From contig LJTN01000013.1 of the NCBI GenBank assembly GCA_001303415.1, forward strand, positions 1-64,000: 64,000 bases of DNA. Reading direction: 5' to 3'. The position numbers were made by a program, and so were the translations under genes. Shown here in pieces: positions 1 through 33,918 of this stretch; the first letter of the stretch is position 1; every line of letters starts with the position of its first letter. This DNA is from Myxococcales bacterium SG8_38. Its GTDB lineage: Bacteria > Myxococcota_A > Polyangia > Polyangiales > Houyiibacteriaceae. The notes under the pieces were generated by a model. The model ran no database searches. It was not told the origin of the DNA and saw nothing but the letters and a program-made list of their open reading frames with translations.

Positions 1-278
1 AGAAAGCGGCCGCCGTTCGAGAGCGCGCCGCCGAGATCCCCGGCTACCGAGGGCGTCGCCGAGAATCCGGAGCCGCCTTCAGCTCGCGCAATCTCGCGGC
101 CGTCCGAGAGCGAGAGCGCAAAGAGCGAGCCTTGGGTCTCGCCGTAGATGACGGTGCCGCGCTCGGTCACGATGGGCGGGGTCGGCGCGCCGCGCTCGGG
201 TGGCCTCTCCCATTGCACCTCGCGAGTTCTCAGATCCAAGAGCGACACGCCGCGAGGCGCCGAGGAAATGACGAGCAT
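1..278 (-). CDS. PQQ-like beta-propeller protein, fragment cut by window edge
   Basis: Reading leftwards from an ATG at 278, the frame stays open to the window edge (about 92 codons). It has propeller-blade texture: a LLDLRTREVQWE strand, then IVTERGTVIYGETQGSLFAL, as in PQQ/BamB-type repeats (LDxxTGxxxW). No signal peptide is present. The blade consensus seems to begin about 8 residues before this ATG (GVCIAGR), but an in-frame TGA lies just upstream, so the N-terminus may be lost and the gene may be a remnant next to the tRNA. The true C-terminus is outside the window. Function unknown; an envelope propeller protein is an inference. Confidence 0.45.
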   Translation of the reverse strand, partial: MLVISSAPRGVSLLDLRTREVQWERPPERGAPTPPIVTERGTVIYGETQGSLFALSLSDGREIARAEGGSGFSATPSVAGDLGGALSNGGRF

Positions 279-12656: not shown

Positions 12657-13604
12657 ATGGGGTCTGAGCGAGGGGAGCTGGTGATCGAGGGTTTGGCGTT
12701 GCCGTTGGCGCTGCGTTTCATCTCGGGGAAGTATCAGGGAGGCGAGTTTCCGCTTCCGGAGGCCGGCGAGATCGTCATCGGACGTTCGAGCGAGCTCGAC
12801 ATGGTCCTCGTCGAGGACATGGTGTCACGGCGGCACGCCAAGATCTCGGTCCACAACGGCGACATCTACTTGGAGGATCTCGGCTCGACCAACGGGAGCT
12901 TCGTCAATGGTGAGAAGATCACGCGAACCAAGCTCGCCGAGGGCGATCGCATTCTGATCGGAACCAGCATCATCAAGGTCGTCGCGTCGGACGGCACCAG
13001 CTCGGTGCAGGACGCCCAAGCCAAGATGGACGCCGCCGCCAGCGCACGCCCGTCCGCGGCGAAAACGATGACGGGCTCAATCGCCGAAGTGGCGCTGCCA
13101 GACCTTCTTCAGCTCTTTTCCGCTTCGAAGAAGACGGGCGTCCTACAGATCACGACCATGACCGACGTCGGATCGATCTACCTCGAAGACGGGCGAGTGC
13201 GGTTTGCCGTCGTCAATGGCGACGAGTCGGTCCCTCCCGAGAAGGCCTTCTACCGGATTCTGGTTTGGGACAAGGGCACCTTCGATCTCTTGCCCAAGGT
13301 AGAACGAGAGTTCCCCAAAGAGATCCACAGCAGCATCGAGGGTCTCCTGATGGAGGGCATGCGCCAGCTCGACGAGATCCGTCGTCTTGGAGATGCACTG
13401 CCCCCTTTGCAGTCGCGGATCATGATTCCAATGCCACTCGACAAGCCGCTACGCGACGCGTCACCCGAAGAGCTCGACGTGATTCAGCTCGCGCTGAACC
13501 ACGAGACACTGGTCGACATGATGAACCACAGCGGTAAACCCGACCCTGATGTGGCCGAGGTAGTCGTCGCGCTTTTGGAAAAAGGATACCTGGTCGCCGA
13601 TTAG
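12657..13604 (+). CDS. FHA-domain plus DUF4388 (PATAN-like) signalling protein
   Basis: 315 residues, cytosolic. The FHA domain (about residues 17-110) has GRSSELDMVL, then SRRHAKIS and LGSTNGSFVNG, the phosphothreonine-binding landmarks. A linker leads to a DUF4388 domain (about 140-235: GSIAEVALPDLLQLFSASKKTGVLQI, then YLEDGRVRFA). The C-terminal region (about 245-315) is helical. The DUF4388 domain is common in myxobacterial and Deinococcus regulators. ATG at 12657 lacks a ribosome binding site; a GTG at 12681 has GAGGGGAG just upstream and may be the true start. A Ser/Thr-kinase partner is likely but not in the window. Confidence 0.85.
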   Translation: MGSERGELVIEGLALPLALRFISGKYQGGEFPLPEAGEIVIGRSSELDMVLVEDMVSRRHAKISVHNGDIYLEDLGSTNGSFVNGEKITRTKLAEGDRILIGTSIIKVVASDGTSSVQDAQAKMDAAASARPSAAKTMTGSIAEVALPDLLQLFSASKKTGVLQITTMTDVGSIYLEDGRVRFAVVNGDESVPPEKAFYRILVWDKGTFDLLPKVEREFPKEIHSSIEGLLMEGMRQLDEIRRLGDALPPLQSRIMIPMPLDKPLRDASPEELDVIQLALNHETLVDMMNHSGKPDPDVAEVVVALLEKGYLVAD

Positions 13605-19460: not shown

Positions 19461-20249
19461 ATGGAGCAAGCTCGCAATTACGTTTGTACAGAGTGCGCAA
19501 GCTCCGTTCCGTCGGGACACAAGTTCTGTGGCGCCTGCGGGGCGTCGGTCCCGCTCGAGGCCCAGACGCTGGAGACCAGGTTCTTCGGGGCCCTGCAAGC
19601 TCCAGGCAAGGCCCGCCTGATCGTCATTCGCGGTGACGAGGCGATGGGCGAGGGGCTCAGTTATCTGCTCCAGGCGACCGAGCATGTCGCGGGCCGGGAG
19701 GCCGATCAGATCCCGTTCCCGAGCGACAATTGGCTGAGCCCGATCCATGCAAACTTTCTCTATCGTGGCGAAAAGCTCTTCGTCCGCGACGAGGGAAGCC
19801 TCAACGGCGTGTACATTCGGACTCGACGAGCGTCGCCGCTCCAAATCGGGGATCAGTTCATCTGCGGACAGCAGCTGTTCCGCGTGGATGCAACGCCCAA
19901 AGACAGCTCCGGTCCGGAGGCGGACCAGACGTATTTCTATTCTTCCCCGCGACGGCCGAGCCCATTTCGCATCACGCAGATTCTCGAAGGGGGAATGGAC
20001 GGGATCGTTTGCTGCGCGCATGAGCAAGCGGTGCAGATCGGGCGAGAGGATTGCGATTTGAACTTCCCCGACGACGTCCACATGTCTCCAAGGCATGCCC
20101 GCGTCGAAATGTCCGGAGAATCCCTCACGCTGATCGACGAGAATTCGCAAAACGGCACTTATGTGCGCATTCGAGGCGAGCGAGAGCTAGGCCACGGAGA
20201 CTACCTGTTTCTGGGCCGGAACCTGCTCCGAGTGGAGGTGACGGCGTGA
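19461..20249 (+). CDS. Zinc-ribbon plus tandem FHA-domain protein A
   Basis: 262 residues. The N-terminal zinc ribbon is CTECASSVPSGHKFCGACG (CxxC-x12-CxxC). The first FHA-like domain (about residues 50-145) shows HVAGREADQIPFP, SPIHANF and EGSLNGVYIR. The second (about 165-262) shows QIGREDCDLNFPDD, SPRHARV and SQNGTYVRI. This is the pT-binding layout, although the first domain has weakened Arg/Ser positions. AGGAGG lies 10 nt before ATG 19461; ATG 19407 is an in-frame alternative. The stop is overlapped by the GTG of a paralogue, so the two are probably co-translated. Likely a phospho-signal reader; partners unknown. Confidence 0.8.
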   Translation: MEQARNYVCTECASSVPSGHKFCGACGASVPLEAQTLETRFFGALQAPGKARLIVIRGDEAMGEGLSYLLQATEHVAGREADQIPFPSDNWLSPIHANFLYRGEKLFVRDEGSLNGVYIRTRRASPLQIGDQFICGQQLFRVDATPKDSSGPEADQTYFYSSPRRPSPFRITQILEGGMDGIVCCAHEQAVQIGREDCDLNFPDDVHMSPRHARVEMSGESLTLIDENSQNGTYVRIRGERELGHGDYLFLGRNLLRVEVTA

Positions 20250-21346
20250 TCGTCTGTTCCCGATGCAGCAAAGAAAATCAAGACCACTACAGGTTCTGTC
20301 TTGGGTGCGGCGCGGAGCTTCCCCGGCACAGCGCGAAACCCAGGTCGTTCGCGGTGCCTGAGACGCAGGGCGCAGAGCCCTCGTCCCCGAAGCGCGATAC
20401 GAACGCGCCGAGAGCAAGAGGAGCGCACGCCGGAGCGCTGGCTTCGGCCCCTTCGGTGGAGATGGATCCCACGCCGGCGCGTGCCGTGCGCGCAGAGCCG
20501 CTTTCAGTCGACGATCCTCTACCCCGAGAGTTGGCGCCTCTGGGAGATGAAACGTCGCCATGCTCCCACTGCGGTGCGCAGGTGCCGGTCAATTTTCGCT
20601 TCTGCCACGTTTGCGGAAACGATCTTCACGCGGTCAGCAGCACAGAGGCCTCATCATCAGGCGCGCCCGCCGAGCGTGTTTCGGCCCCCGCAGTGGCGGA
20701 GCCCCGACCGGAAACGAAGCGCGCCCGTCTCGTGTTGATCCAGCCGGACGGCTCGGAGGGCGAGGCGTTTCCTTTGTCCGGGGGTCGAACTCTGATCGGG
20801 CGCAGCACCGGAGGCGTCTTTTCCAACGACGCCTACCTTTCGCCGGAGCACGCCGAGTTTCGCTTCGAGGAGGATCAGCTCGTCGTCAAGGACATGGAAA
20901 GCCTGAACGGCATCTACATTCGGATCGAGCCCGATGTGCCAATCGAGCTTTTCGACGGGACCATCTTCCGCATCGGCCAGGAAATTCTGCGATTCGAAGG
21001 CCCGCTCGCGCCCGATCCGGCTCCGGATGGCACGCAGTACATGGGAAGCCCCCACCGCGGCTTCTTGGGACGTGTTTCGCTCGTCATCGGACGACACGCT
21101 ACCGGCAATAGTTACCCGGTGCCGCCGCAGGGCATCTACCTCGGCCGTGAGCGTGGTGACGTCTTGTTTCCCGAAGACGGGTACGTGTCGGGGCTTCACT
21201 GCCGCATCCATTCCGAAGTGGGCCACGTGTTCCTCACCGACCTAGGCAGCTCGAACGGCACGTTCGTCCGCGTGTCGAATGAATCATTCGTTCCAAAGGG
21301 CACCTTCGTGCTGATGGGTCAGCAGCTGTTTCGAGCCGACTACTGA
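20246..21346 (+). CDS. Double zinc-ribbon plus tandem FHA-domain protein B
   Basis: 366 residues from GTG 20246 (GTGA overlap with its paralogue). Two zinc ribbons: CSRCSKENQDHYRFCLGCG at residues 4-22 and CSHCGAQVPVNFRFCHVCG at about 111-129, joined by a Pro/Ala-rich linker. Then FHA 1 (GRTLIGRSTGG, SPEHAEF, ESLNGIYIRI) and FHA 2 (GIYLGRERGD, SGLHCRIH, GSSNGTFVRV). Domain arrangement matches protein A with an added ribbon, indicating tandem duplication. Convergent with the hydrolase gene; the two overlap by 7 nt. Confidence 0.82.
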   Translation: MIVCSRCSKENQDHYRFCLGCGAELPRHSAKPRSFAVPETQGAEPSSPKRDTNAPRARGAHAGALASAPSVEMDPTPARAVRAEPLSVDDPLPRELAPLGDETSPCSHCGAQVPVNFRFCHVCGNDLHAVSSTEASSSGAPAERVSAPAVAEPRPETKRARLVLIQPDGSEGEAFPLSGGRTLIGRSTGGVFSNDAYLSPEHAEFRFEEDQLVVKDMESLNGIYIRIEPDVPIELFDGTIFRIGQEILRFEGPLAPDPAPDGTQYMGSPHRGFLGRVSLVIGRHATGNSYPVPPQGIYLGRERGDVLFPEDGYVSGLHCRIHSEVGHVFLTDLGSSNGTFVRVSNESFVPKGTFVLMGQQLFRADY

Positions 21347-27268: not shown

Positions 27269-27318
27269 CGGCTCAACTTTAGTTGGGCTCGCCCGCCCCG
27301 TCGACTACTGTAGGGGAC

Positions 27319-27927
27319 ATGCGCCAGGGCGTAGGGTGGCTTCTTCTGAGCCTTTGCATCGTGAGCTGCACCGGCAAGGCGGAGGCCGTTCGCGCTGCAC
27401 AGCCTCACGTGGAGCACTTCGACGAGCTGCGCTCGAGGGCTCTGAGCCTGCTCGAGCTCCGCGCCGACGTCGAGCGTAAGCGCCTGCTCGTACAGGCCCG
27501 CGAAGGCGACGAGGAGTCACTTCCGGACAATCTGCGGCCGGTGTTCGAGCGCATGCAGGCCGAGCGAATGGAGATCACCGAGGCACAGCTACGACATGGG
27601 GAGGCGCTGTTTTGGCGAATGCTCGACTACTCGTTCTCGGAGAATCCAAACGTGCTCCAGGCCGAGATCGTGTTCCTCGAAAAGGATGGCTCCATTTCTA
27701 CCTTTCGCCATCCTCACGAGCGGGAGCTACCCGCCGGGGTCCAATGGCACGGCTTGCGTCAACACCGAACCTATACCGGCCTTGCGACCTGTGTGACGGA
27801 CCAAGGGTCGGAGCCTTGCGTGCTGCTGCAGCTACGGCCCAGAGACTATCCTGGAAGCGCAGGTCTGACGGTCGCGTTTCGCACGCCGCCAGTCGAGACT
27901 AAGGCTGGCGAACCGTCAGATCGATGA
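27319..27927 (+). CDS. Putative lipoprotein, hypothetical
   Basis: 202 residues from ATG 27319. The signal peptide has a lipobox: MRQGVGWLLLSLCIVSC, with Cys17 preceded by IVS. The rest is soluble: a helical stretch (FDELRSRALSLLELRADVERKRLLV), then a mixed region with two further Cys residues (ATCVTD and EPCVLL) that could form a disulfide. No known family recognised. A start at 27283 would hide the signal peptide. It overlaps the convergent downstream gene by 29 nt. Confidence 0.6.
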   Translation: MRQGVGWLLLSLCIVSCTGKAEAVRAAQPHVEHFDELRSRALSLLELRADVERKRLLVQAREGDEESLPDNLRPVFERMQAERMEITEAQLRHGEALFWRMLDYSFSENPNVLQAEIVFLEKDGSISTFRHPHERELPAGVQWHGLRQHRTYTGLATCVTDQGSEPCVLLQLRPRDYPGSAGLTVAFRTPPVETKAGEPSDR

Positions 27928-31317: not shown

Positions 31318-33918
31318 ATGCAGATAGAAGCCACTCAGCAGATCATGCTCCTTTTGCTCGTCCTGTTTCCGCTGGGCGGCGCGGTCACAAACGGCCTGCT
31401 CGGCCGCTATCTCGCCAAGGGGTTGGTCACGTTGGTCGGCGTCGGGTCCGTGGCGGTTTCCTTCGGGCTGGCCGTGGCCTCGTTCGTCCAGCTCTACGGA
31501 CTTCACCACGAGGCCCATCATGCAACCCTCGTCTACCACTTCTACGAATGGTTCTCGCTGAAGCTTCCTGGCGGGCAGGTGGTGCCGGTCAACGTCCGCT
31601 TCGCGATGGATTCTCTGAGCGGCATCATGACGCTCGTGGTGACCGGCGTCGGCGGCCTCATCCATCTCTACAGCGTCGGCTACATGGGCGAGGACGAGGG
31701 CTACCCAAGGTTCATGAGCTTCCTGAACCTGTTCATGGCCTCGATGTTGATTCTCGTCCTTGGCAGCAGCATGCCCCTCATGTTCGTGGGCTGGGAGGGT
31801 GTGGGCCTGTGCTCGTACCTGCTGATCGGCTTCTGGTATCAGAATCGCGACTACGCAGCGGCCGGACGAAAGGCGTTCGTCGTCAACAGGATCGGCGACT
31901 TCGGAGTCCTGATCGGGATGCTCATCCTGGTGGTCGTTGCGGGGTCCTTCGAGTTCTCCGAAATCAATGCCGCCGCGGTCGACGGCCGGTTTCAGGCGGA
32001 CTTTCCGGTCTTGATCTTCGGAGTTGCGCCTAGCCTCGCCACCATCGCTTGCTTGTTTCTGTTCCTCGGGTGCACCGGCAAGAGCGCCCAGATTCCGCTC
32101 TACGTTTGGCTTCCCGACGCCATGGCTGGGCCCACGCCGGTCTCGGCGCTCATTCATGCCGCGACCATGGTCACTGCGGGCGTCTACCTGTGTTGTCGCC
32201 TCTCCCCTTTGTTCATCACCTCGGACGTTGCGATGTCCGTCATCGCCGTGATCGGCACGCTCACCGCGTTGCTGGCCGCATCCATCGCAGTGGCCCAGCG
32301 GGAGATGAAGAAAATCCTGGCTTACTCCACGGTGAGTCAGCTGGGATTCATGTTCGCTGCGGTTGGGGTGGGGTTCTTTGCAGCGGGCTTCTTTCACGTA
32401 TTCACTCATGCCTTCTTCAAGGCCTGCCTGTTCCTCGGCGCTGGCTCTGTGATGCACGCGGTACACGCGCACGGAGACGCCGACATCTTCAAGCTGGGCG
32501 GGTTGAAGAAAGATCTCCCGACCACGCGTTGGACGTTCCTCGCCAGCTGTCTTGCGATTGCAGGGTTCCCCTTGACCAGCGGGTTCTTCTCCAAGGACGA
32601 GATCCTGCTCGGCGCGGCTGCCCAGATTCATCGTCCCGACGATGCGCTGATGCAGGCGGTGGGGTGGTTCACCCTGATCGGCCTCACGCTCGCGGCGGTG
32701 ATGACGGCTTTCTACATGTTCCGTCTGTATTTCTTGACGTTCACCGGCGAGTACCGAAGCGCGGATCAGTCCGGCGACCATCCGTACGACGCGCACCCGC
32801 ACGAATCTCCGCCGAGCATGGCAATTCCGCTCGTCGTGCTAGGCATCGGTGCGCTCGTGGTGGGCTTCCTGGGATTGCCGCACGTCATGCCGGTTACGGG
32901 AACGCATCTGCCCAGTTGGTGGGGCCACTGGATGGAGTCCTCGGTGGCGGGCCGACCGGTTCCCGAGGAGCTCAGCGTCGTCAACTTGGCTTCCGGTCTC
33001 GCTTTTGCGGCGATGGCCGTCGGCATCGGCGCGGCCTGGATGCTCTACCGCAACGAGAACGAGGACGCGCTCGCGAAGGCAGCACCGGCCCGGCTCTATC
33101 AGCTCGCGTTCGAGAAGTGGCGTGTGGACGAGCTGTACGCGGCAATCATCGTCAATCCAATCAGGAAGCTCGCCGCCGCGGTCGGCCACTCCGACATGAC
33201 GTTCGTCGATGCGCTCATGACTCGTCTGCCGAGCTTCAACGTCCGCGCGGCCGGTCGGCTCTTCGCCCATCTGCAGAATGGCGTGGTCCAGATGTACGGA
33301 GCGGTGATGGTGGTCGGCTTCGTTGCGGTGATGGCGTGGTTTTGGGCGCCTCATGCCGCCATCGAGGCGGACTTCGAGGGGACGGAAGTGGCGCTCGAAG
33401 CGCCGAAGGGGCTCGGCTACGAGTATCGCTGGGACGCGAACTCCGATGGTGAGTTCGAGACGGCGTGGACCACCGCTGCATCCACTTCGTTCGAGTACCA
33501 GCAAGACGACATGCGCGGGGTGGCAGTGTTCTTGCGGAGCATCGAGACCGGCAGCGAACGCCGGATTCGCGTCACCGAGAAATGGACGTCCCTTCCCATC
33601 GAGTCCGTGGTTCCCGCCGAGCGCATGACGCCCAGCGAGCGTGGATTCGAGGTTCGCGTCGATGGCGCCGACCTGGTGTTCCGCAAGCCCTTTGTGCCCA
33701 CGGGCAGCCAGGAGATGCGCTTGCCGATGGGACGTGTGGGTCGGCTTGGTCAGGCGCGCGTATTCGCACGGCCGCTCGTCGAGGCGACGGTGGAGGTCCG
33801 GAATGCTTTCGGAAACACCCGTCGAGCTTCGCGGGAGCTCGCGTTGCCGTTCGCGTTCGAGGACGCGGCGCCCCGGGCGTCACTGATGCCGCCATCGTCT
33901 CGTGAGGTGCTCCGATGA
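31318..33918 (+). CDS. nuoL: NADH-quinone oxidoreductase subunit L with long C-terminal extension
   Basis: 866 residues, against about 610-700 usual. Residues 1 to about 675 are a normal antiporter-like subunit: FVGWEGVGLCSYLLIGFWY with the key Glu, CTGKSAQIPLYVWLPDAMAGPTPVSALIHAATMVTAG with the Lys and His, and the long lateral helix region. After the last hydrophobic segment (GAVMVVGFVAVMAWFWAP) about 190 soluble residues follow. They are beta-rich and include YEYRWDANSDGEFETAW, like a PKD/EF-loop calcium site. The extension is not part of classical complex I. It overlaps nuoM by 4 nt. Confidence 0.95.
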   Translation: MQIEATQQIMLLLLVLFPLGGAVTNGLLGRYLAKGLVTLVGVGSVAVSFGLAVASFVQLYGLHHEAHHATLVYHFYEWFSLKLPGGQVVPVNVRFAMDSLSGIMTLVVTGVGGLIHLYSVGYMGEDEGYPRFMSFLNLFMASMLILVLGSSMPLMFVGWEGVGLCSYLLIGFWYQNRDYAAAGRKAFVVNRIGDFGVLIGMLILVVVAGSFEFSEINAAAVDGRFQADFPVLIFGVAPSLATIACLFLFLGCTGKSAQIPLYVWLPDAMAGPTPVSALIHAATMVTAGVYLCCRLSPLFITSDVAMSVIAVIGTLTALLAASIAVAQREMKKILAYSTVSQLGFMFAAVGVGFFAAGFFHVFTHAFFKACLFLGAGSVMHAVHAHGDADIFKLGGLKKDLPTTRWTFLASCLAIAGFPLTSGFFSKDEILLGAAAQIHRPDDALMQAVGWFTLIGLTLAAVMTAFYMFRLYFLTFTGEYRSADQSGDHPYDAHPHESPPSMAIPLVVLGIGALVVGFLGLPHVMPVTGTHLPSWWGHWMESSVAGRPVPEELSVVNLASGLAFAAMAVGIGAAWMLYRNENEDALAKAAPARLYQLAFEKWRVDELYAAIIVNPIRKLAAAVGHSDMTFVDALMTRLPSFNVRAAGRLFAHLQNGVVQMYGAVMVVGFVAVMAWFWAPHAAIEADFEGTEVALEAPKGLGYEYRWDANSDGEFETAWTTAASTSFEYQQDDMRGVAVFLRSIETGSERRIRVTEKWTSLPIESVVPAERMTPSERGFEVRVDGADLVFRKPFVPTGSQEMRLPMGRVGRLGQARVFARPLVEATVEVRNAFGNTRRASRELALPFAFEDAAPRASLMPPSSREVLR

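Follow-up and report, generated by a model that had tools for sequence, protein, structure and literature searches.

The nuoL gene and its membrane part

The window, which is the whole 64,000-nucleotide stretch of DNA analysed here, carries at 31318..33918 an open reading frame of 866 aa (+ strand, as for all features below; coordinates with the stop included). The frame is NuoL, subunit L of complex I, as established from the list of open reading frames and from two curated NCBIfam models matched above their cut-offs: TIGR01974 over residues 10-675 (E 7e-194, 646 bits against a cut-off of 407.5) and PRK06590 over residues 10-677 (E 2.3e-197, 658 bits against 556). The gene order, read from translations, places nuoE, nuoF, nuoJ and nuoK upstream and nuoM and nuoN downstream, the last bases of nuoL overlapping the ATG start of nuoM at 33915. 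A small lipoprotein-like ORF of 214 aa (27283-27927), which gave no Pfam match, lies upstream of nuoE. The complex I genes of this genome are split over contigs; nuoH, together with what read as nuoG and nuoI, is found on another contig (G000:C38, L130), apart from the nuoEFJKLMN genes of the window, and the NuoH ORF there is long, at 471 aa.

The whole membrane part known from NuoL/ND5 of complex I (TIGR01974) is present, including the lateral helix and TM16. The lateral helix region (33115..33282, about residues 600-655, boundaries approximate) is assigned to the cytoplasmic side from its place in the NuoL family match and from the published structure (PMC3046159). TM16, the last membrane helix, follows at 33283..33345 (about residues 656-676), where a hydropathy segment is centred at 663-673. 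Past residue 690, every 19-residue hydropathy window is at or below 0.48, and about 188 residues without a membrane helix follow the end of the NuoL model match, in agreement with the sequence-only reading, which had described an extra-membrane C-terminal domain of about 190 residues after a helix at about 675. By comparison, the NuoL proteins of E. coli (613 aa) and Thermus (606 aa) end at or near TM16, whereas the window NuoL has 188 more residues, periplasmic by the topology discussed below. PDB entries for NuoL/ND5 of complex I are 3rko and 4he8.

Make-up of the tail

An AlphaFold prediction of the tail from eleven sequences is mostly beta, with a mean pLDDT of 84.4 (a single-sequence prediction of the whole NuoL reached a pLDDT of 37 and was useless as a model). 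The beta-rich soluble domain with the stretch DANSDGEFE that had been proposed from the letters alone is thus borne out by the model. Judged from the sequences of its relatives' shorter tails, this domain is a PKD-type beta-sandwich. The window tail alone matched no Pfam family and, unlike known PKD domains, lies below Pfam PKD detection by itself. The tail of L083, from another order of the class, reached the cut-offs of both PKD_4 (PF18911, 28.6 bits against 27) and PKD (PF00801, 23.6 against 23.5); the short tails of L071 and L126 came near the Pfam PKD cut-off, and the longer tail of L016 scored 20.8 bits with PF00801, below the cut-off of 23.5. A profile built from twelve short tails matched collagenase PKD domains in the PDB (E 1.5e-7 to 2e-5). 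The profile of the long tails, to which the window tail belongs, found no match among PDB sequences; its match to the profile of the short tails reached 98.9% and covered the first 69 columns.

When the model was compared with solved structures, some 80 residues, distributed between model positions 1 and 170, aligned to Ig-like sandwiches. The PKD1 domains of PrtV (4l9d) and Epp (6aem) align over 76 residues at 2.2-2.3 A with Z 8.2 and 20% identity; cytokine-receptor and FnIII domains align equally well, with Z up to 8.9, so that the fold alone says Ig-like and the PKD identity comes from sequence. The first part of the sandwich occupies 33346..33513 (residues 677-732; model strands 7-50, within PKD matches spanning model positions 1..170), and the closing strands, with the conserved VEVRNAFGN stretch, lie at 33766..33855 (about residues 817-846; model strands 137-152 and 158-166), where N829, F831 and G832 are invariant. 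The C-terminal 17 residues (33865..33915) are predicted to be disordered, as pLDDT falls under 50 for model residues 174-190. A search with the tail profile outside the order gave no NuoL; its matches there are confined to short parts of other long open frames and are presumably PKD or similar calcium-loop repeats.

The DANSDGEFE loop (33433..33459, residues 706-714) has the form Dx[DN]xDGxx[DE] and is a likely candidate for a Ca2+ ligand site. Dx[DN]xDG is a linear calcium motif found in many structural contexts, including strand-loop-strand, in a paper that does not mention PKD (PMC3123361); the window loop shares with it D706-x-N708-x-D710-G711, with an acid at 714, and lies between strands. 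An EF-hand is ruled out, as strands flank the loop in the model and loop position 12 is Trp717 rather than Glu or Asp. Thus, from the earlier proposal of an EF-loop or PKD-like calcium site, the PKD-like part held, by profiles, by Pfam via relatives and by structure, and the EF-hand part did not. When the loop was looked for in homologues, as had been suggested, it was, in the form Dx[DN]x[DN]Gxx[DE], intact in 33/33 non-identical long tails and in about 12/29 PKD-only tails, being lost in over half of the latter. This loss means that calcium is not the universal purpose of the tail.

Between the two parts of the sandwich lies an insert of about 85 residues (33514..33765, about residues 733-816, boundaries approximate). 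The best Foldseek matches of the tail model in the PDB are FHA domains (3po8, 3poa, 3oun and 2lc1; probability 1.00, E 2.5e-3 to 1.4e-2, target TM about 0.5). The Foldseek output comes without ranges, and these matches are assigned to the middle of the tail, since its two ends are already taken up by the PKD strands. A profile of 20 inserts matched 17 FHA domains of the same genome at 68.5% over 42 columns, covering the second half only and in register over NG and L-x-x-GD-x-x-x-x-G, against 2.8% and 0.2% in two control comparisons. Pfam FHA (PF00498) matched 0/20 inserts, and the insert profile matched no PDB sequence. A family-wide scan with this profile gave four weak matches elsewhere, of which one, in a non-NuoL protein, is a true FHA domain with 24.1 bits against 20.7; the other three belong to no family and were taken as noise. 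Considering these results, we regard the insert as probably FHA-like, nested between strands of the PKD-type sandwich. FHA domains bind phosphopeptides through Gly-Arg and Ser-x-x-His residues, and none of these phosphothreonine residues (GR, SxxH) is present in the aligned inserts; an insert that reads phosphothreonine is therefore ruled out. Elsewhere in the window, several FHA domains occur at 19689-21280 and 12771-12962, and the genome has 21 FHA matches in total. The composite make-up of the tail, and the loss of the loop in many PKD-only relatives, had escaped the sequence-only reading.

Conservation and growth of the tail

No intact NuoL of the genus lacks the tail, which also continues into other genera and families of the order; the loss from close relatives that would have pointed to a frameshift or a gene fusion was looked for, and close relatives keep the tail. 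Within the genus, identity is 79-82% in most cases and 69-71% in two, and the named records with the same tail type are Myxococcota MAGs, one labelled Polyangiaceae. Among the residues invariant over 25 NuoL of the order are G698, G700, Y701, Y703, D706, D710, G711 and Y727, besides the three in the closing strands. In eight pairs, the tail has a dN/dS of 0.14-0.27 and the core one of 0.05-0.10, the tail being about 1.4 to 5 times higher; the ratios are rough for some distant pairs, where synonymous divergence is high (dS about 1). Together, the invariant residues and these dN/dS values argue that the tail is more than chance, and the sequence comparison indicates that it is constrained by purifying selection, yet evolving faster than the core. 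One assembly (L039, the MAG CP070650.1, same as L015) has nuoL in two overlapping frames of 630 and 380 aa, with the tail present; the split is probably a sequencing frameshift in that assembly.

Tail length, counted as residues beyond position 678, increases stepwise towards the window's relatives. Most NuoL sampled from other classes of the phylum have a tail of about 0 residues, and two have 16-30. Three genomes from other families of the class, outside the order, have PKD-type tails of 86-101 residues. Inside the order, families f5, f7 and f12 have tails of 89-163 residues, the window's genus and several other families have 185-220, and tails with further inserts reach 256-304. The NuoL tail of family f16 (L080, L082 and L084), at 60-85 residues, does not resemble PKD and may be an extension that arose independently or has decayed.

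We placed these types on a quick tree of 75 NuoL cores, in which the long branches of L092 and L100 are unsafe. All NuoL of the long type (PKD plus insert) group together with support 100; support is likewise 100 for the order-level group that joins PKD and long types, and 98 for a group of five family f1 members that carry an additional insert. The three genomes that have PKD-type tails but lie outside the order are placed elsewhere in the tree, which gives three changes in all; their tails may be of older origin, with losses since, or may have been gained independently. From these sequences, the tree supports stepwise accretion: NuoL sampled outside the class have no tail of this kind, the PKD-type domain stands at the base of the order, there was a single gain of the FHA-like insert, and one clade added a further insert.

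The insert of family f1 (L019-L024, five genomes of one clade) consists of about 90 extra residues of alpha/beta appearance between the DxDxDG loop and the next Tyr, and it gave no Pfam match. L025 has a different insert, of about 100 residues, inside the FHA-like part, for which a PPIC-type rotamase appeared only below threshold (E 0.07). Second NuoL copies in the same order match to residue 670-677, in open frames of only 607-634 aa, and are unextended; thus, the tail goes with one complex I lineage.

Place on complex I and possible roles

In E. coli, the three antiporter-like subunits share 14 helices, and NuoL has two more, which are joined by a lateral segment on the cytoplasmic side and the last of which is close to subunit N (PMC3046159). 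This means that the final helix runs from the cytoplasm to the periplasm, and the published topology thus places the tail in the periplasm on the outer face of the membrane arm. In the mitochondrial enzyme, TMH16 adjoins ND2 and ND4L, which correspond to NuoN and NuoK, and NDUFA11 sits over the lateral helix beside TMH16. There, NDUFA11 gives stability to the two halves of the membrane arm and, in the mammalian supercomplex, provides the only contact within the membrane between complexes I and III (PMC8762328). Several related tails contain cysteines (e.g. L106 and L108), which would suit a periplasmic domain and prove nothing.

We tentatively propose that the tail acts in cis as a brace of the lateral-helix anchor on the outer face, with Ca2+ as a structural ligand. 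TM16 anchors the lateral helix by NuoN and NuoK, and a module attached to it would be positioned at that point on the outer face of the membrane arm. There, it may pack against the periplasmic loops of neighbouring subunits, and this packing would hold the lateral-helix anchor in place, so that the tail would do in cis the job of the separate mitochondrial accessory subunits; Ca2+ would serve as the structural ligand of the Dx[DN]xDGxx[DE] loop. Three observations count against such a brace: the dN/dS of the tail is above that of the core, and a surface packed on conserved core loops might be slower; the loop is gone from over half of the PKD-only tails; and in family f16 of the class the short tail is not of the PKD type.

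As the main alternative, the module may be a docking platform that binds, instead of complex I itself, a separate partner, such as another respiratory complex in a supercomplex, a periplasmic electron carrier or cell-wall material, a reading that we consider possible and somewhat doubtful. PKD and FHA folds are often protein- or glycan-binding. That the tail evolves faster than the core, and that some clades carry extra inserts, would suit a partner surface that varies, and a contact with complex III beside TM16 has a precedent in NDUFA11 (PMC8762328); considering that NDUFA11 both stabilises the membrane arm and makes this contact at the same spot, it supports either a brace or docking. It is unlikely that the tail is an ornament, a domain fused once and kept as a harmless fold in which inserts gathered by drift: fast evolution, the variable further inserts and the fact that other lineages manage without a tail would fit, and a dN/dS well below 1 and the residues invariant over the whole order argue against it. 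Still less probable is a calcium sensor, in which reversible Ca2+ binding at the loop would tune the activity or assembly of complex I; all the long tails do have an intact loop, but its loss in over half of the PKD-only tails speaks against sensing, and single calcium loops of the Dx[DN]xDG kind often only stabilise the fold. Finally, a frameshift, a mis-assembly or a read-through fusion with a neighbouring gene is refuted, since the same tail stands at the same place in all intact members of the genus, in independent assemblies, the named MAG records among them, and in other families, and is under purifying selection.

Complex I of bacteria is usually regarded as a minimal enzyme, and a review describes the prokaryotic form as having 14 core subunits and few accessory subunits, the latter only in alphaproteobacteria (PMC8762328). 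It is conceivable, and at present a speculative proposal, that a bacterial complex I grew an outer-face accessory module in cis by stepwise nested insertion (PKD, FHA-like, further insert), and that this module serves as a brace or coupling of the lateral-helix anchor or, in a calcium-dependent manner, as a link to a partner. The parts are of known kinds, and their combination on a core subunit of complex I, together with the nested growth, appears to be undescribed: literature searches, in which subscription papers were mostly not covered, found none on NuoL with a PKD domain and none on Myxococcota NuoL. A lineage with a stepwise-enlarged outer-face domain on NuoL offers a natural way to test how additions to its outer face affect complex I. 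The tail is located at the lateral-helix anchor point, where mitochondria place NDUFA11.

The tail can be set beside three known systems. First, with NDUFA11 and the intermembrane-space accessory subunits of mitochondrial complex I it shares the position at the lateral helix and TM16 and a proposed stabilising role; these are, however, separate subunits with folds unrelated to the tail, NDUFA11 being a four-helix membrane protein. Second, with PKD domains (PF00801, PF18911; collagenase ColH/ColG, PrtV) it shares the sandwich strands, a motif of the Y-x-W-D-x-D-G-D-G type and the closing V-x-V-x-N-x-F-G strand, but the domains of collagenase and PrtV are on a secreted enzyme, whereas the PKD-type domain of the window is on a proton pump subunit and is split by the insert. 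Third, the insert probably resembles the FHA domain (PF00498) in its predicted fold, shares with it the NG and L-x-x-G-x-x-x-x-x-G stretch of the second half, and differs from it in being periplasmic by topology and nested in another domain; an FHA-like domain inside a PKD-type domain would be an unusual nested architecture.
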